From Cliona cf. orientalis (lineage: Eukaryota > Porifera > Demospongiae > Clionaida > Clionaidae): a DNA stretch of 64,000 nucleotides. The translations under genes were made by a program, and so were the position numbers. The notes under the pieces are model-generated. The model saw nothing but the letters and a program-made list of their open reading frames with translations, ran no database searches and had not been told where the DNA came from. The DNA is taken from positions 5,850,292-5,914,291 of the forward strand of contig OZ005697.1 in assembly GCA_963930775.1 (NCBI GenBank), written 5' to 3'. Below, piece by piece: positions 5,945-15,087 of this stretch. The number at the start of each line of letters is the position of its first letter. Positions within the stretch are counted from its first letter, which is position 1.

Positions 5945-6412
5945 ATAAGAATCCCGCGATTACGCCCCCCCCCCTTTGTGCATGCTAGCATTAGGCAAAA
6001 GTGGGGAGGGGGCTTATTCGCGGGATCATTACATTTCCGTGTGACGACCATTACCGAGCGTCGAATGCCCCGTCCACGTGGGCGCGCGATCTCTGTATTT
6101 TCTCTGGCTATTTGATGGGCAGTATTCGAGAAAAACGACAAAGGCATAAATTGACACAAATAGCTAGTTTGCTAGCTGTAAATACTGTTTTTATTGGCTT
6201 GTGGATTCTAATTTTACTGTCAGGGAGGGGGTAGTCTCGCGAGCCAGCTCCTCCTACGCAAAGAGGGGTCTTCGAGGGGTTGGTTCGCGAGACTGGGGGA
6301 TGGGGGTGGGGTGGGTGGGGCTTATACGCGAGACAAACTAGAGTAAATGATCGATTATCGGCCACCACGAATAATCGGACGCTATATCTTTCGGACAGCT
6401 TATCGATTGTTG
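5945..6412. repeat. MITE family C (GAATCCCGCGATTAC), mosaic copy
   Basis: The left part (GAATCCCGCGATTACGCCC onward, with GTGTGACGACCATTACCGA and GCTAGCTGTAAATACTGTTT) matches the full element at 60674-61065. The right part (6300-6412) matches, in reverse orientation, 14940-15015. A short GTCTCGCGA...TCGCGAGAC hairpin is inserted at 6237-6292. Confidence 0.65.
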
Positions 6413-6808
6413 CCTTCCAGTAGATATATATAGACCGCTAGTGGACTGGAGTACACCCTAGTAGTATGCAAGGTATAGACCCGCTTGTAGCTTACCAGTG
6501 CAGAGAAACGTCTCCTCTACTGAAAATAGCTAATGTCGGACAATTTTTCGGCCAGCCGGACGACGTACAAAAATCGTTCCCTGGCCACTTTAACACTGGG
6601 CATTCTTATTCCAGCTAACACAGACGAGCGCCCACCCTTATCCACGCCCCCACCCCGCCCCTAGAACGAACTTTGAACCCAAGAATCTTGTATGGCATGA
6701 CATTGTATAGAAACACAACAACAACAACAAAAAACAAGTCATAAACAAGTTATTGATCAGTATAAAAGATGACATTGCATGTTGATACTATTGCATAAGC
6801 ATGACAGG
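6413..6808. other. 3' flank of the transposase-protease gene; nothing further seen
   Basis: Includes a short CAACAACAACAA tract near 6716-6730. No canonical AATAAA was seen on the minus strand just downstream of the stop at 6809. Confidence 0.35.
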
Positions 6809-7407
6809 TCACTTGCTCCTTTTCTTAGCAGGATACTTCACAGAGAACTCTTTTGGCTTTCCAGCTATAGCCCCCCCACGGCCCAGACACAGACTGCAGC
6901 TAAAGTCTGTGACAGTCTCAAGCTCGGAAATACCAGCACAAGCACAGTGGACCCACTTGTTGCAGCTGTCACACTGGATCATATCAGTATCATACTCATC
7001 AGGCATGCCGCAGAAGCAGTTAATAGGATAGGAGAAGAGTTGAGATTTTGGGCGGGGAATGGTTTCTGAGGTTTTCTGCATCTGGGGAAAGGCTGACATT
7101 TCACCTTTTTGGAGGCAATTGTATAAGTGAACTCGCATGCGTTCTTGATCGAAGGATGCTGCACTAGGATTCCGTCCTTGGCAGATCTCTGTAGCGAAAG
7201 CTATAGCAAAACAGCCACAGTCGGTGTGGCCAACCTGCTGCTGCACACTTTCTTTCCGAACCCTGAGGACTCCACCAGGACTATAAACTTTAGCAATTTG
7301 TAAAAGCAGAGACATTTCGATTGTAGTGAAGCTGCCCACACTGTCAAAAAGTTTTATTTCAGTAGGGGAATCAACAGTTGTGGTACATACCCAGTGACCA
7401 CGAGATT
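6809..7407 (-). CDS. Ulp1-type protease core plus PHD finger (terminal exon)
   Basis: Last exon of the composite gene. It starts with SRGHWVCTTT, where the His of GHWV fits the catalytic His of C48 (SUMO/Ulp1) peptidases. LFDSVG supplies the Asp and QVGHTDCGCFAIAFA the Gln/Cys region, so the whole triad is present. A PHD finger follows within about 45 residues: CxC near QEYD-type CFCGMPDEYD, then CDSC, then WVHC-x2-C, then CSLC. The stop follows a Lys-rich tail (KYPAKKRSK). Ulp1 plus PHD is a pairing known from several transposon families; here it is in frame with a DDE transposase. Activity cannot be inferred from sequence alone. Confidence 0.88.
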
Positions 7408-10400
7408 CTGTGGGGTAAACATTAAAATGTCAGATCATAATAATAATATTATTATTATTACTCACAACAGCTACATAATCAAAACCTCAATAATTCATAA
7501 CTAATTGGGCATGGTGCTCTGGGGAGTACATAACCAGTATTAAAACTTCCTCTATTATAAAGAAATTACTTTAAGGTACATGCATGTGTACATGTATGTA
7601 CATTACATGTGCATCTCAGGGCCCCACTCTGGATCTGTATAAACGACTGTGGGGGTATACAGTTAAATTTTAGTGATGCAGTCTACTCACACACCAAGCA
7701 ATACTGATTGCATAACTTACGCATATCAATATGAAATATCTGAACAGCATTCCTCTTTGTTGTTGTAAATGAAAGATAATGAGAGAGACTAGTATCCTGA
7801 AGTCCTTTTACTCGAGGAAATTGATGGTGAAGTAATGTTTGCACAGCATTCATGAGAGCTTCAGTAAGGTCCTTTCCAGACAACAGAGCATTACGATCAG
7901 ATAGGAATAGTTGCAAATCCTTAATCCACCACTTTGTCTTAGGTGTGGTAGCATCTTCAGTAATTTCAATAACATCCTCACCTACACAATCAAGTCAAAG
8001 TTATGAATGGATAATTACATAAAATTATATGACATTTCCTGAGGTGGATATATATAATGATCATAGTATTATCAACTCCTGGAAAGATATTTTAACAGCA
8101 CTGCGGTAAAATAACAAAGGGCAGTGGTAGTCAAAATGGGTGCTGCACCGCTCCAACACTCTTAAGTGACTTCCTTGAGGATGTGGGATGGGTTGGATAA
8201 TTAATTTTATTAATTGTGGAAAATGATCCTGACCACAAGGATGCTACCCGAGGAAGAAGTGTGTTTTAACATTTGTCATTTATAAGAGGGAGGAAATATC
8301 TGAGATATTAAATTTCTCTAAATCATGGCTGTTGATTAGCTGAGTCGATTATACATCCAACATTAAGACTTAGTACGTACCGCCTTTTTCACTTGATTTG
8401 AGACATGAAGCTACTGCTCTCATTTTCTGTTTACCAGGGACTATCACATCTGCAACAAGCATAAGCAATATTCAGAGATGTATGAGATGTTAAATATCCC
8501 ATTAATCTAGAGGGGGTGCTGTGGAATTCCCCCCTAATGACCAATTCGATGTCGCTATCACCCCCCAAGTGCTCAAAATACGTTATGTCAAACTAATATC
8601 ATCAAAATCAACAGGTGCTCTCAACTTTGCATGTACACGTACATGTACGTGCACATGTGACTAGAGATTATAAGGAAACCAGTTTGATTTCACACTAATT
8701 ACATCCCCAGTATTAATTTACTTTTTTGCGGTTATTAGGTAATTATGTTGTAATTATGATGTAACCTATGTCGTCATAGCGCTAAAATTCAGAGCCCAGT
8801 TTACAGAACACTTCTGAGAACTGAAAATCCACAGAATCATATATTAACTTACATACATATATAGCGAATACATTAAAAGCTGAGTGCTACTTTCTCCGAC
8901 AAGTAATGCCGGCCGAACTTCACGCATTCTCTTGGCTGACGTAATCCTGTGGATAAATAAAGCTAGCCTTGCGCTATTTATAGCACGCGTCATGCCACGA
9001 CCGATCTGAAGTTTGGAAGCTGTACTGTGCTGTCGAGTTCATCTCCTTTGATAGAAGCATCGAAACTCGAAGTCGAAAGTTGATCTTAGACTCCATCTCT
9101 ACGATTGAGGCCCTGGCATCGATGTGTGTATGACGACCTTTACCACATGCACCATTAGAACTATACAGCCACTGGGGATGTGGTCAAGGGTTCATAATAA
9201 TATGCATTTACTTATAGTCATGTCCACAATAATATTATACTTCATAATATTCAGAACTAATTTTTGGGATGTAAAAATAACTTTTTTCCCTGGGGGGCAT
9301 ACCCCCACACCGCCTAGCAGCAAATCCTGTATGACACACTGGTACGCACATATGTACCTTCAATCTTACTCTTGCCCTTCTCCATAAAACTGGCAGATTC
9401 TGAGACAATGGTTTTCTGACGTGTTGCATACACCTTTCTCACTACTGCCTCTTCCTTCTTGGATGCTTTCTGATTAATCCCGTATGTCTCTGAAACATGA
9501 ATATGACTTACTAAAAACAAGAGAATGTACAGTTACAGGAATATACACCCCCACCAAGCCTCCCCCCCTCACAGCAATCAGATAAACCCATCTCTACACC
9601 TGGCCTTACTATTTTTATCCTCTTTAGAATCAGATGATGAATCAGACATGACTGCAGCTTTTTGGCGAGTTGGATAGGATTTCTTCACACCTTTCGCTTG
9701 GGAACGAGAGGAAGTCTCACCTAAAAAATTGAGAGTTCAGTGTATGTGCATGGAGGAATTTCACAGCATAATATCCCCCACCACCCCCCCCCCCATCTCC
9801 ATTAAAATTAGCTGCTTCTATACCTGGCCTTACCATTTTCATCCTCCTTAGAACCAGAAGATATATCAGACATGATTGCAGCTCTTTGGCGAGTTGGATA
9901 GAATTTTTTTACATCTTTTGCTTGGGAACCGGGAGCAATCTCACCTAAAAATTGAGAGAATGTACAGTGTACAAGTATAGTGTGTGCACGGGTGTACAAA
10001 AACGGCATTTCACAGGAATTATAATGTAATCCTAGGCACCAAGTTGATAACTATTACATAATAAAACACGTATCTACTCCTTCAGGCCCCCCCCCCCCCC
10101 CCCCCCAAAATTGAGAACGTACAGGATGTGTGTGCATGGGGGCACTTCAAAGTATATCCACCCCTCCCCACTCCACTACAATTGTCATCAATTGGCCATA
10201 CCATTTTCATCCTTAGAACCAGATGATGTATCGGACGTGAAAGCTGCTGATTTCTTTACACCTTTCGCTTGGGAACCAGGGGAAATCTCACCTAAAAAAT
10301 GGAGAGGGCTCAATGTATGCGCACGGGAACATTTCATAGCATCCCTCCCCCCACCCCCTCCTCTGATACAAGCTGCTTTGTCATCTCTACACCTGGCCTT

Positions 10401-13055
10401 ACCATTTTCATCCTCCTTAGAACCAGATGATGTACATGTATCGGACTTGACTGCAGCTCTTTGGCGAGTTGGATAGGATTTCTTCACACCTTTCGCTTGG
10501 GAACCAGGGGCAATCTCACCCGCTACATCAGTGTCTTTGCTGGATTTTTTTCTCAACCTTTGGGAGGAACGGACTTGTTTTGGAGCAGTACTGGTAGGAT
10601 TGGTATGGTCTGTGTTCTTTTTCCTCATTGAGAGAGTACTTGGTGAAACTTGGTTTTTTAGTGAACGTGTTTGTCGAGCAGAGTCGTATGTTTCTTTCAA
10701 TACTTGCTTTCCTCGACAAGTCTCAGGAGCCTTTAACCTTTTATCCACAGACTTCCTTTTTTCTTGCCTCTTTGCAGCACTTGCTACCTTGTGATCTGAC
10801 AGAGGGTTACCTTCATTGGCATTCATCTCCGGTTCACTCTCAGGAGGATGTGTTTTTTCTTCCTCCTCCCAATCAAAGAAGTATTCGGGAATGTCCCAAT
10901 AATCATCATAAAGGAGGTAATCATCTGCAATCAAATGCAATGATATATTTAATGTCTAGTCACAGCAGTTATTGCATATAACCACATTGATAATAGTATT
11001 GAGGCACACAAGTCAATTGTACATGTATATCATTAGTCTTGTGGCTGGAATGTTTGAAAATTGCCAGTGGCTGCCTGACTGCAGTTAATCATATGATCCA
11101 TATTTAACGATAGAAATTAGCATTAAGTTTTACAAATTCTCATAACACGCATATTATTACAGTACATGGAGTGATTGATGATCTTTACCAGAAAAGCATG
11201 TGGTTTAAAGACATACGTTGTATTAGATTAAGTACTGTACTAGTAAACACAGAATATGACAAAATTGGTTAACATACCATCAATCGAGCTAGATTGTGGA
11301 TCTTCTTCAGGTAGTGGCTTACGAATGCTTTCTTCTGTACAAAATTAATTCACAGATCACAGAAGATGAATATTAATTATATAAATATTATACTCTTACT
11401 TTTTGATGCCTTTAGTTGGAGCTTTTGTTGCTTTTTAGCCTCTCGATTTCTCACACGTTCTTCTTTTAATCGAGCTTTCTCTTCTTTTTGCAGCTCTTTT
11501 TCTTGTAGTGCTTGTAGATTTTCAGCACTTGTAAGCACACGGCTGGAGTGGATTTGAGTAGTTGGCTTTCGGCGAGGAGGAACAGGTAGACTAAGAAAGG
11601 GGGTGAGAGTGGTATGCCGTTCTGCCTGCCGATACCGAGAATGTACAGGAGATTCTTCAAGCAAGGGCAACTCTGGGTGATATTTGTTCACCCACATTCT
11701 GTAACAAGGATCATCACAGTCTTGCTTATCCTTGTAATACTGCTCAAATTTAAGCAGCTCGCTCTGAGAAAATCTGGGACTTTCTGCTACTCCACCTGGA
11801 ATACGTCGTTTAACTGGCGTGTACAAAGGTATATAGGACAAGCCAGTTTTCTGGCATAAATTTGAAGCTACATCATCACCAGGCAAATCGATAGCATCCC
11901 TGTTCAGTGGACATACTCCAGTTGTTCGAAAACCTGCAAGAACGTTCTTCTGGGTCATCGACTTGTACCAGGCTTCACTGAAAATATGTGAAAAATTGTG
12001 CTTTGAAATGACCTTTCCTGGATTTTTAATCAAATAATTGTGGACTTCTTCCCGCCAAGCAATTTTCAATGGTCCAAACATGCCCTTGTCAAGGGGCTGC
12101 GTCAAGTGTGTGGTGTTTGGGGGGAAAGTAAAGATGATGACCTGCTGCTCTGCAGCATATCGTATTGCCTCCGGGCAATAATGTGATGAATGACCATCAA
12201 CTAAAAGAAGCAGGGGCCGACAAGGGGGAGCATAGCTCAGAAATAAGTTACGAAACCAAACGTAAAAGAGCTCTCCATCGATCCAACCTTTATCTGACAA
12301 CCCGTAAATAGTACCAGCAACTTCACCATTTGAAAGCTCTGCTGGAAGCTTTTTCCTGTTCCATATAACCATTGGTGGGAGGCTATACCCATCAGCTCTC
12401 ACACATCCCACAATAGTGATCTGTTGTTTTGATCCACTAGAAACAGCTGAAGGATTCTTACTTCCTTTTAGATTGACGGTTTTCATGGACTTGGGGTCCA
12501 ATGCCAACCCAGTTTCATCCATATTAAATATTTGAAGAGGTACATCCATCAAACCATTTTCTTCCATTGCATCCTCAAGAATATCAAAATATTTGTCTAA
12601 AGATTCTCGATCAGACGCCATAGCTCTAACATTAGAAAGAGCAGCAGGTGAACGGAGGACAATTTCAGGATTTCGTTTCACAAAAGACTCCCACCAACCA
12701 CTACTAACCCCCTTCTATAGATACCACGCGATGCTAGAATTCGTTCAACTATAGCCATGACTTCACTTCTCGTGCGACCGTATCCAATGGCTGCAGAGCG
12801 GCAAAGGAATGTTGCAAGTTCCTTTTCTTCTTGTGCAGTGAGGTAAGTTGCCGGGCCACTCGTACTCCCAGGGAGTACTCGTCCAGTGATTCTGTCGCCC
12901 AACGTACTCTTTGGAACATTGTAAAGTGCAGCTGCCTTTCTTACAGCAATTTCATCTTGAACAACAGCAGATATGGCTTTACTCATATTTTCTTCACTCC
13001 AAGATTTGTACTGTACTGGGCGTAGCGGCACATGTGAATGACTTGCTGTAGACAT
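6809..13055 (-). CDS. Composite gene: pogo/Tigger-type transposase - basic repeat exons - Ulp1 protease - PHD finger
   Basis: Ten exons read right to left: 13055-11400, 11334-11278, 10924-10403, 10291-10202, 9944-9834, 9720-9610, 9489-9358, 8449-8381, 7981-7721, 7407-6809. All nine introns are GT-AG and phase 1, giving about 1,200 aa. The order of parts is: a psq/CENP-B-like HTH (KSWSEENMSKAISAVVQDE); a DDE domain with acidic residues in FNMDETG, LLVDGHSSHY and THLTQPLDKG; a charged coiled tail; an acidic segment; five basic modules; a Ulp1/C48-type protease (GHWV His, FDSVG Asp, HTDCGCFAIA Cys); and a C-terminal PHD finger (CFCGMPDEY, QCDSCNKWVHC, CSLC). One frameshift near 12712 splits the HTH and DDE parts. 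The start is the Met of MSTASHSH at 13055; a longer frame begins at 13103. It may be a transposon product, a domesticated fusion, or two genes read through. Domains are clear; the single-gene model rests on phase continuity. Confidence 0.75.
9358..10520 (-). repeat. Tandemly duplicated symmetric exons (five modules)
   Basis: Modules at 10520-10403 (end of a larger exon), 10291-10202, 9944-9834, 9720-9610 and, more diverged, 9489-9358. Each standalone exon starts after one base of a codon and ends after one base (phase 1-1). The first four encode the pattern GEIxPGSQAKGVKK(S)YPTRQ, then RAAV, then SD/SSGSKEDENG. Intron flanks are also similar, with poly-C runs near 9790, 10087 and 10350, so exon and intron were duplicated together with a spacing of 220-450 bp. 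The modules are basic and Ser-rich, as in disordered DNA-binding or linker tails. Confidence 0.85.
11082..11250. repeat. Dispersed repeat family D, copy 1 (in intron)
   Basis: Shares AGTTAATC, ATGATCCA, GAAATTAGCATT, ATTCTCATAAC and GATCTTTACCAGAAAAG with copies at 25385-25510 and 32400-32560. It lies between exon 2 and exon 3 of the composite gene. Confidence 0.6.
11377..12681 (-). CDS. DDE (pogo/Tigger-type) transposase domain exon
   Basis: This is the long open part of the first exon of the composite gene, with the catalytic core of the Tc1/mariner-IS630 superfamily, CENP-B/jerky/Tigger branch. Visible motifs are MDETGLALDPK (first Asp), VDGHSSHYCPE (second Asp) and PPNTTHLTQPLDKG (third acidic position). 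The tail is a Lys/Glu-rich coiled segment, and the spliced frame leaves this exon at 11400 (AAAAA/GTAAGA). If the intron is retained, the frame stops at 11377. Upstream residues that usually precede this core (a WWESF-type motif) are present in this frame before its first Met, which shows that the true N-terminus lies in the adjoining frame. Confidence 0.9.
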   Translation of the reverse strand: MKRNPEIVLRSPAALSNVRAMASDRESLDKYFDILEDAMEENGLMDVPLQIFNMDETGLALDPKSMKTVNLKGSKNPSAVSSGSKQQITIVGCVRADGYSLPPMVIWNRKKLPAELSNGEVAGTIYGLSDKGWIDGELFYVWFRNLFLSYAPPCRPLLLLVDGHSSHYCPEAIRYAAEQQVIIFTFPPNTTHLTQPLDKGMFGPLKIAWREEVHNYLIKNPGKVISKHNFSHIFSEAWYKSMTQKNVLAGFRTTGVCPLNRDAIDLPGDDVASNLCQKTGLSYIPLYTPVKRRIPGGVAESPRFSQSELLKFEQYYKDKQDCDDPCYRMWVNKYHPELPLLEESPVHSRYRQAERHTTLTPFLSLPVPPRRKPTTQIHSSRVLTSAENLQALQEKELQKEEKARLKEERVRNREAKKQQKLQLKASKSKSIIFI

Positions 13056-13103
13056 AGTAAGTGCTCCCTTACCAAATGAACTGCTCACAAAAAACACGAT
13101 CAC
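12678..13103 (-). CDS. N-terminal helix-turn-helix part of the transposase (frame-shifted)
   Basis: Encodes the psq/CENP-B-like DNA-binding part (AISAVVQDEIAVRKAAALYN, VPKSTLGDRI) and the following helix region (EEKELATFLCRSAAIGYGRT). It ends four codons past the point where the reading frame should pass into the DDE frame. The break maps to a run of five G on the minus strand (12711-12715), so either a one-base change inactivates the gene or the base count is wrong. Confidence 0.8.
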   Translation of the reverse strand: MIVFFVSSSFGKGALTMSTASHSHVPLRPVQYKSWSEENMSKAISAVVQDEIAVRKAAALYNVPKSTLGDRITGRVLPGSTSGPATYLTAQEEKELATFLCRSAAIGYGRTRSEVMAIVERILASRGIYRRGLVVVGGSLL

Positions 13104-13985
13104 GAAGAGAAGCCATTATCTGTGCATACAGTCAAGATAGTCAGGGTACTACTGAAACACCCACCCCTCCCCTTTTGAGGTTTTGAACGAGCATGCATGG
13201 TAAGAATTGGTATATTGTACATCATTGGTTGACGTACATGTAAGGTACAATAATCAATATTGGTTAAGCCCTCACATACATGTACATGTACCAAAAAAAT
13301 TGCATATCTGATATTTGGCAGCAAGCACTCCAGGTTAACACAGGTATGTGGTTGCGTTATGTCATTCCACAGTCTTGGCGGTTACACGTTATTACACTCA
13401 CTCATGCACACCATAGTGGGAAGGGCAGGAAATGAGTATAATAATTACATGTACATGTATAAGCTATAACAATGGCGTTTCGATAGTTGACTAAACTTAT
13501 AGTGGATCCCAACCCGGAATCGTGTTGCAGATATACAAAGAATATTGCATGATTATGCTAGCATAAGCAAGATGCATTTTGTGCGCATGTGTACATGTAC
13601 CGTCTTGTATACCACGCATGTACCACTGGTCTATTGCCCAATGAAAGGTTTATTTCTTATTAACACCCACCACAGGTACATTACTCTGTACAGATCCTGT
13701 ACACGCCTTTTCTCATTTTTACCGTGCATTAACATACCAAACCATCAAATATGGAGACACTTCAGCTCTTGTTCAATCCCGTGTGCTATACATGTACATA
13801 TAGGCACTATAGGCTATGGTACACACCATTGTCCAGACCCCTACTCTCTCTGTGCATGAAGCGGGCTGGGTACGAGTGGATTTTTATTTCTTTTTAACAC
13901 CCATCTATACCAGGCAGTTTGTGCGTTCCACCTGGTACGACCTGACCCTTTGCTCAGCCTCTCTTGAGTAGGTGGGCCAGGGTTA
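13104..13985. other. No gene recognised
   Basis: Contains several TACATGTA-rich stretches (13209-13291, 13590-13600) and AT-rich sequence. It is the likely promoter side of the composite gene, but no promoter motif can be assigned. Confidence 0.35.
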
Positions 13986-14333
13986 GTCTTGTGACCCAGC
14001 CCCCAAAAACGTTCACGTAAAATTTTCCCAAGAGACTATATCCACTCTTCTCGTCATAGCGTGGTAACAATGCAAAGCAAAGTGACTTCCCATAGCCAGT
14101 ACGTAAGCTAACCAACACATCTTTACCTCCAATGAAGCCACCACACGGCATATTCGAGTGGCATTCTTCGTAAAAAAATTATTTTATGATAAATTGTGCG
14201 CTTTGCACGTTAATTGCAAACGGAGCGATCTGATTGGTGGCGCCACATTCCAGAGTTTGGGACTGCTCGTTGTACACAATGATACCAGACCCCTTTTTCA
14301 TGTGAGCGGTTTTAGGGGGCTGGGTCACGAGAC
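13986..14333. repeat. MITE family E (GTCTYGYGA termini) carrying a host-gene fragment
   Basis: Starts GTCTTGTGACCCAGCCCCC and ends GGGGGCTGGGTCACGAGAC, near-perfect terminal inverted repeats preceded by TA on the left. The right half shares TCTGATTGGT, GGGAC and TACCAGAC blocks with the fold-back element at 15256-15597. The left half holds a helicase-like coding fragment (see 14044-14139). Confidence 0.75.
14044..14139 (-). pseudogene. RecQ-like DEAD helicase fragment (Walker A region)
   Basis: About 32 codons are open and read GKDVLVSLRTGYGKSLCFAL followed by LPRYDEKS. This is the motif I segment of RecQ-family helicases (GKDVLVxxPTGxGKS), although Pro before Thr is replaced by Arg. Nothing else of the helicase is nearby, and the fragment sits entirely inside a MITE, so it reads as a captured piece of a gene and not a functional locus. 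Confidence 0.7.
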
Positions 14334-14939
14334 TTGCGGCTAGGGTGAGTATAGACTCCCACTTCTTTTTTCCCCCGGAACTGTTTCTAGCGATTTCATG
14401 GACATGCATACACCCTGCATCATGTGATGTCATTGCAAAGGATACTGGAAGGTGCCCAAAACTTTGAAGAAATCACAGAAACATCGCGATTATTTAAATT
14501 TATACTCGTTTTTGATATTGCATATGACCTTAGACACTAATAAACAGGCACACAAAATTCAAATTTATATCTCACCGACAGCTGGATGTAAGAGAATTCC
14601 GAGCAGTGCACCTACATGTAGTCTAGTATCAGCCACGTGCATGACGTGGAGAAATCTTCGTGATACAACCGTAAACGCGTACTATACCAATACGTAGCCA
14701 CGCCCACCAGGTCACACGCAACTGCGCTAGCATAGGCATGGTAGCTGTGGGCTTAGTACCCTTGAATAAGACGTCTGGAGGGCACGTCCGACTGTCCGCA
14801 AAAGTGTCCGACATTCTCTATGTTCGGGCACGGGGACATTTATCTCATTCCTCTCCGTAGACGCAAGTGTGCGATGGTCAATATATGATGTACTATCATA
14901 GGTACTAACGATCTTCCTTTTGGAGTTATACGTAATTAA

Positions 14940-15087
14940 TTTCCGTCTTCAGTCCGAAAGATATAGCGTCCGATTATTGATGGTGGCCGATAATTGATCA
15001 TTTACTCTACTTATGCAGGAACTCGAGGTAAAATGCAGGGGGGGCTTATGTGCGAGGGGGCGTAATTGCGGGATTCTACAGTATTAT
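14940..15087. repeat. MITE family C, right-end fragment
   Basis: Ends in GGGGGCGTAATTGCGGGATT then CTACAGTA, matching the right terminus of the 60674-61065 element. The preceding 70 bp match 6340-6412 in reverse orientation. Confidence 0.65.

Follow-up and report, generated by a model that had tools for sequence, protein, structure and literature searches.

The locus considered here raises the question of whether a pogo-type transposase, a Ulp1-type cysteine protease and a PHD finger, encoded one after the other on the minus strand of a 64,000-nucleotide stretch of the genome of the sponge Cliona cf. orientalis (contig OZ005697.1; C9:5850292-5914291, hereafter the window), belong to one protein and to one mobile element. 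The original prediction, made from the letters of the window, had chained ten exons between positions 6809 and 13055 into one continuous splice frame. By searching the genome (216.8 Mb, 149 contigs), the ends of an element, its copies, a fused layout, conserved catalytic and zinc-binding residues and purifying selection on both enzyme parts were found. The reading favoured here, with a probability of about 0.78, is that of a recently active pogo transposon with a single spliced gene, predicted to encode an HTH_psq (helix-turn-helix) domain and a DD35D transposase core, joined through a Lys/Ser-rich linker of duplicated mini-exons to a SENP/Ulp1-type cysteine protease with a PHD finger behind it at the C-terminus, which would act as proposed below.

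The gene sits within a complete pogo-type transposon of 8671 bp (window 6339-15009, minus strand, TA duplications included), which is larger than the interval 6809-13055 originally delimited, and which has the terminal inverted repeats (TIRs) and TA duplications that the original prediction had left to be sought. The TA target duplication lies at 6339-6340 on the 3′ side of the gene and at 15008-15009 on the 5′ side. The 3′ TIR (56 bp, 6341-6396) and the 5′ TIR (14952-15007), both annotated on the minus strand, are identical at 53/56 positions, and at both element ends TA is followed by GAGTAAATGATCRATTATCGGCC... With the DDE exon as query, five further copies were retrieved with 98-99% amino-acid identity. 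The homology of the window to these copies (family A), upstream parts included, spans 6339-15009, while the flanking sequence differs from copy to copy. When the genome was scanned with the first 25 bases of the TIR, the exact sequence occurred 13 times (15 if up to two mismatches are allowed) and the backwards control not once; 12 of these occurrences pair up as the ends of exactly the six copies, all of which have both ends. The window copy is inserted into a dispersed repeat: when its flanks were joined and searched, 77 matches were listed, of which 38 are paralogous sites that continue unbroken through the insertion point (of the others, 2 are the flanks themselves and 37 match only the other half); the corresponding empty-site search for copy cB matched only its own flanks. 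Pairwise identity between copies ranges from 94.7 to 99.98% (for copy cD, all but 1129 bases were covered), the top value being that of the C1:13.57 and C15 copies over 8633 columns, which indicates recent movement. The element has probably been recently active by cut-and-paste, and moves as one unit between its TIRs. The remaining exact match to the family A TIR is an orphan at C18:2512174-2512198, possibly a truncated or non-autonomous relative.

The ten exons, with consensus GT-AG sites at nine phase-1 introns, were recovered as predicted when read from the DDE frame. Exon 1 (11400-13116, minus strand as are all the others) encodes HTH_psq and DDE_1 (DD35D). It is followed by a linker made of exon 2 (11278-11334, 57 nt), exon 3 (10403-10924, 522 nt, acidic then basic, with a repeat unit at its end), the repeat-unit mini-exons 4 (10202-10291, 90 nt), 5 (9834-9944, 111 nt) and 6 (9610-9720, 111 nt), and exons 7 (9358-9489, 132 nt) and 8 (8381-8449, 69 nt). 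Exon 9 (7721-7981, 261 nt) encodes the N-terminal part of the Ulp1-like domain, and exon 10 (6809-7407, 599 nt with the stop) its catalytic His-Asp-Gln-Cys part and the PHD finger. Exons 2-9 are all multiples of 3 in length, and the spliced product of family A has approximately 1220 codons. The duplicated unit of exons 3-6 is EIAPGSQAKGVKKSYPTRQRAAVMSDTSSGSKEDEN-like; in family C an exon-intron unit of 169 bp is repeated in tandem at least 5.9 times, and in family E one of 180 bp 7.9 times. More generally, the linkers appear as tandemly duplicated, frame-keeping mini-exons (window 9610-10520; L012:3336-4341; L080:148-1589), the number of units varying by copy and family.

The continuity of the frame, as first proposed, holds from the DDE part through the PHD finger but not within exon 1, in which the HTH and the DDE part have different open frames, those of 12678-13115 and 11377-12714 respectively. 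A 2-bp insertion near 12714 separates the two, and another, of 1 bp near 13094, cuts the HTH off from the start codon used in other copies, which maps to approximately 13116 rather than 13055; both insertions are missing in the five other copies. With two frame-breaking insertions the window copy itself is probably dead. Elsewhere among the copies the HTH-DDE frame is open over 583-587 aa, and the splice sites of exons 1-3 and 7-10 were found again in copies cA and cC. Intactness varies, and some copies are not intact: in copy cB the first donor reads ATAAGA and the end of exon 7 is altered, and copy cD has an insertion within the last exon.

When the window proteins were scanned against Pfam, HTH_psq (E 2.6e-9), DDE_1 (4.1e-21; 2.7e-21 in copy cA) and PHD (1.5e-6; 28.5 bits versus a cut-off of 24, with the C4HC3 zinc ligands present) were matched as anticipated, but Peptidase_C48, also anticipated, was reached by the last exon with an E value of 0.005 and 17.1-18.1 bits, under the cut-off of 20.7. 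The spacing between the second and the third Asp is 35 residues in 12 of 13 transposases, the 13th (L011) having been missed by the search pattern. A profile of the Ulp1-PHD part was built from 13 relatives, eight from pogo places and five from other elements. His 91, Trp 92, Asp 108, Gln 144, Cys 150, the eight PHD ligands and Trp 238 (numbering of the first sequence) are invariant in all 13, in full agreement with the His-Asp-Cys set and the Cys/His pattern initially recognized; of the residues that would form a methyl-lysine cage, the Trp is invariant and the Met is present in 12/13. Against the PDB, this profile matched 137 distinct sequences at E values up to 0.01, including SENP1 (2.1e-8) and PHD fingers (down to 2.3e-14). 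Among the 60 matches listed, PHF2, EBS, SHL, PHF8, SPP1, BPTF and DIDO1 came at the top, and CFP1 and TAF3 were also found; the best of them are readers of histone H3 trimethylated at Lys 4 (H3K4me3). A PDB search with the DDE part returned nothing significant.

The same arrangement was sought at all the pogo places of the genome, counted as 85 (107 listed rows minus 22 continuation fragments). No fewer than 24 of the 85 are followed on their own strand by a Ulp1/PHD match, at a distance of up to 10 kb, and none of the 85 has one upstream or on the opposite strand, among the matches listed; since the genome contains at least 151 Ulp1/PHD matches, of which 149 were entered (at least C11:6586650 was left out as a fragment), 24/85 is a lower bound. 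Grouped by similarity, the module-bearing places belong to families A (5), B (3), C (3), C′ (1), D (3), E (4, two subtypes), G (3) and H (2). A compact case is that of family G, in which one 172-bp phase-1 intron links HTH-DDE to Ulp1-PHD to give an 887-aa product, with a junction (exon 1 end CTGAAAA|GTAAGA, exon 2 start CACAG|AT) that is identical in both copies examined (C14 and C2). Exon 2 is open over 284 codons, and its first Met, at 192, is past His 104 and Cys 165, so that a complete protease cannot start there and a separate gene is unlikely. TIRs with the same core (TAGAGTAAG...CGGACG) were found on both sides of families C and C′, whereas families B, D, G and F yielded one on a single side; for family E no TIR was found in the stretches examined. 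The order and strand of the parts, the one-intron fusion of family G and the presence of both parts inside TIRs support the proposal that a Ulp1-like protease and a PHD finger are fused to a pogo-type transposase in one spliced gene, as originally put forward, and absence of the fused order from every relative within the same genome is refuted.

Both enzyme parts are under purifying selection when the window copy is compared with copies cA and cB. Versus cA, 7 synonymous and 6 nonsynonymous changes were counted in HTH/DDE (ratio of nonsynonymous to synonymous change, pN/pS, 0.25; Fisher p 0.013), 15 and 9 in Ulp1/PHD (0.17; p 1.4e-5), and 2 and 14 in the linker (1.93; p 0.54). Versus cB, the corresponding figures are 11 and 10 (0.26; p 0.0024), 19 and 10 (0.15; p 2.8e-7), and 3 and 20 (1.82; p 0.44). 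The pN/pS values for HTH/DDE, Ulp1/PHD and the linker are 0.34, 0.42 and 3.02 for cA versus cB, and 0.22, 0.21 (exon 9 only) and 4.43 for the window versus cD; these comparisons have copies in common and are not independent.

As to what such a protein might do, we infer from the sequence features that the module cleaves SUMO and targets histones, and it is plausible that integration is in this way tied to SUMO processing and histone reading. The HTH would bind the terminal repeats and the DDE core would cut and join at TA, while the PHD finger would hold the complex in active chromatin by way of methylated histone H3 (H3K4me3 in all probability). The protease may strip SUMO or a similar modifier from the transposase itself, or from chromatin and repair proteins of the host at donor or target sites, and SUMO removal would counter SUMO-dependent silencing or ease repair. 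In families A, C and G a stop is found soon after the first donor site, so that an intron-retaining mRNA would give the transposase alone, and the balance between the two forms may be governed by splicing. Pogo-type transposases are the source of the vertebrate CENP-B, POGZ, POGK and TIGD genes. If the fused protein works as outlined, a pogo-type transposase can bring along its own SUMO protease and histone reader.

The origin of the module was addressed by comparing trees. The tree of the Ulp1 domains sets families A, B, C, C′, D and H apart from the others (support 99/99), while in it E and G come together (100/99) and then join L053, a version from an integrase-type element (96/91), to which the E/G version thus appears closest. 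In the transposase tree the module-bearing pogo transposases do not form one clade (approximately unbiased test, p 0.00016), and E and G are not joined; forcing them together gave p 0.029, and forcing all pogo Ulp1 modules into one clade of the Ulp1 tree p 0.032, values that are soft, the E plus G grouping having been picked after viewing the first trees. In the first Ulp1 tree L051, a long-branch integrase-type element, was placed beside family A (85/82). The second omits it together with the window sequence, and contains a cA row with read-through intron sequence and a partial family B row (L045). In the two-change count only family F and L007 were marked as module-less, L015 and L030 being unlabelled.

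The module was also found behind integrase pieces (Integrase_H2C2, 1.7e-15, at L057; rve_3, 3.8e-6, at L051; weaker matches at L053, L050 and L052, and none at L054), with a Mutator-like element (MULE) transposase (2.1e-14 at L079, adjoining L055), and at the end of a 1146-aa frame without a Pfam transposase at L069. One module behind unrelated transposases, with a tree in conflict with that of the transposases, suggests repeated selection for the module and allows a direct test of whether transposons act against SUMO-dependent chromatin, for which family G, with its single intron, and the near-identical copies offer compact material. Tentatively, then, Ulp1-PHD might be a portable adaptor exchanged among unrelated elements (pogo, integrase-type and MULE), of which at least two versions (that of A, B, C, C′, D and H, and that of E and G) would have entered pogo, since the transposase would thereby find active chromatin and disarm SUMO-based silencing; this we hold to be possible rather than probable. 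About 29 listed Ulp1/PHD rows have open frames of 1018-1154 aa, L069 being the one that was read. At L056 and L078 (C7:2058674-2066000) a Ulp1/PHD frame with repeated SGTQVRAP units has nearby, on the opposite strand, a 589-aa frame labelled gag-like by eye.

The stop that the DDE frame reaches at 11377, the in-frame Met codons in linker exon 3 of family A and a linker unconstrained at the protein level would all suit a mobile element with two genes, one for a pogo transposase that stops near 11377 and one for Ulp1-PHD with a start of its own in the linker exons. We regard this as unlikely, given the one frame held through all nine introns and, in family G, a Ulp1-PHD exon lying 172 bp past the transposase exon without a Met ahead of the catalytic residues. 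Still less probable is that the module is a passenger without a role in transposition, acquired from a gene of the host or from a different transposon: strong purifying selection acts on it in the window-cA and window-cB comparisons, its catalytic and zinc residues are invariant, and it is kept in eight family groups (A, B, C, C′, D, E, G and H), even if the disagreement between the two trees, its presence at the end of integrase-type and MULE elements and its dispensability in copy cE, family F and L007 would be expected of a passenger. That neighbouring remnants of unrelated transposons were merely chained by eye, or by the assembly, has a probability close to nil. In a genome with at least 151 Ulp1-PHD matches occasional neighbours are expected, and the window copy is frame-broken, but among the matches listed the module is never upstream or on the other strand (0/85) and the whole unit moves as one between TIRs; the strand and order count, the paired TIRs at six copies and the one-intron fusion of family G are considered to have already refuted this explanation.

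Several observations weigh against the preferred reading of one spliced fusion gene with the proposed role. Splicing was deduced from consensus sites, frame and selection, and the linker shows no constraint at the protein level (pN/pS 1.8-4.4 in four comparisons, not significant). Both window pairs (cA and cB) rest on one common broken copy, and between cA and cB, at low divergence, the Ulp1/PHD part differs by 6 versus 9 changes (0.42, without a significance test). All 13 members of the profile matched PHD in Pfam, but Peptidase_C48 was matched by 10/13 (E up to 0.05), with single-sequence scores that are mostly weak, and 7/13 also matched the YopJ-type acetyltransferase, a fold of the same class, so that SUMO specificity is putative and care is needed with respect to substrate and activity. 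In family A the aromatic residue that most relatives have just before the first PHD cysteine is missing, which makes its methyl-lysine cage uncertain. Finally, copy cE (C7:411804-416945) has lost exons 3-10 (linker, Ulp1 and PHD) although its HTH-DDE frame is open and its two TIRs are present; family F, with a frame of 874 aa, has its 3′ TIR approximately 0.66 kb past that frame in four loci, too close for the module to fit in between; L007 shows no module in approximately 5 kb downstream; and in family B no PHD was detected by tblastn or motif scan. The module is therefore not required by every relative.

With respect to known systems, the DDE_1 Asp triad, the pogo-type HTH, the TIRs and the TA duplication all assign the element, as far as sequence features go, to the pogo superfamily, for which lengths of 1.2-5.2 kb and transposases of 300-977 aa are given in the available text of PMC7386202. 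The likeness to its Fot-like, Passer and Tigger members extends to HTH plus DDE_1, DD35D, TA duplications and the 40-60 bp TIR class, and HTH_psq is as reported there for Fot and Fot-like elements (PMC7386202). Family A is larger, with 8671 bp and approximately 1220 codons in ten exons, and has Ulp1 and PHD in addition, whereas the 887-aa product of family G falls inside the reported range. The 'Tigger' part of the label first given to the transposase is not supported, since the motif reported for Tigger is CENP-B_N/HTH_Tnp_Tc5 (PMC7386202), whereas the window and cA show only HTH_psq; HTH_Tnp_Tc5 was found weakly, below cut-off, in L029 and L007 only.

That Ulp1 or PHD parts occur in other transposase classes, as stated in the original prediction, is borne out for Ginger1, with Ulp1 in several families and Ulp1 plus PHD in Ginger1-9_HM; the available text of that paper mentions pogo solely in the context of a tree (PMC2836005). 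Ginger1 resembles the present element in having Ulp1 (and PHD in Ginger1-9_HM) C-terminal to a DDE enzyme, a spliced gene and a similar proposed role, but its catalytic domain is of the Gypsy-integrase type rather than pogo DDE_1 (PMC2836005). Ulp1 domains are also known in Mutator elements (PMC2836005), which share cut-and-paste movement, have an unrelated transposase and are here separate elements (L079 with L055). Some Cryptons encode C48 peptidases, for which domain shuffling was suggested; these are also DNA transposons with a Ulp1-like peptidase, but their enzyme is a tyrosine recombinase, not DDE, and PHD is not mentioned in the text available (PMC3212892). In the literature examined, in the parts available and with Repbase reports and subscription journals outside its reach, no pogo element with Ulp1 or PHD was found, and neither 'protease' nor 'PHD' occurs in the available text of PMC7386202, PMC7325037, the Tigger survey PMC9219625 or the Passer paper PMC9976928. 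Ulp1 is thus known from Ginger1 (once with PHD), Mutator and some Cryptons, the pogo-type case appearing to be an addition as far as these sources go. No match to rve or H2C2 was obtained in the Pfam scan of the window proteins. In the RAG2 protein a PHD finger couples H3K4me3 reading to a transposon-derived recombinase, although on a separate subunit, in the RAG/Transib family and with no protease.

Some candidate boundaries of the element were rejected. A self-comparison of 6300-14200 gave chance pairs of inverted repeats only, the real 5′ end lying outside that range. An end at 13493, suggested by the C7 copy, was dismissed because that copy picks up again upstream, and one at 14137, from the first comparison, because the copies are alike on both sides of it, four of the six having approximately 181-188 bp extra there. 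This point falls within 14008-14334 (minus strand), where a piece of a short repeat is nested inside the 5′ part of the element; the repeat is dispersed, with more than 90 matching rows in the genome, and the piece contains a 74-aa frame with a weak likeness to DEAD/RecQ-type helicases (DEAD, E 0.001, below cut-off; WRN, E 0.18).

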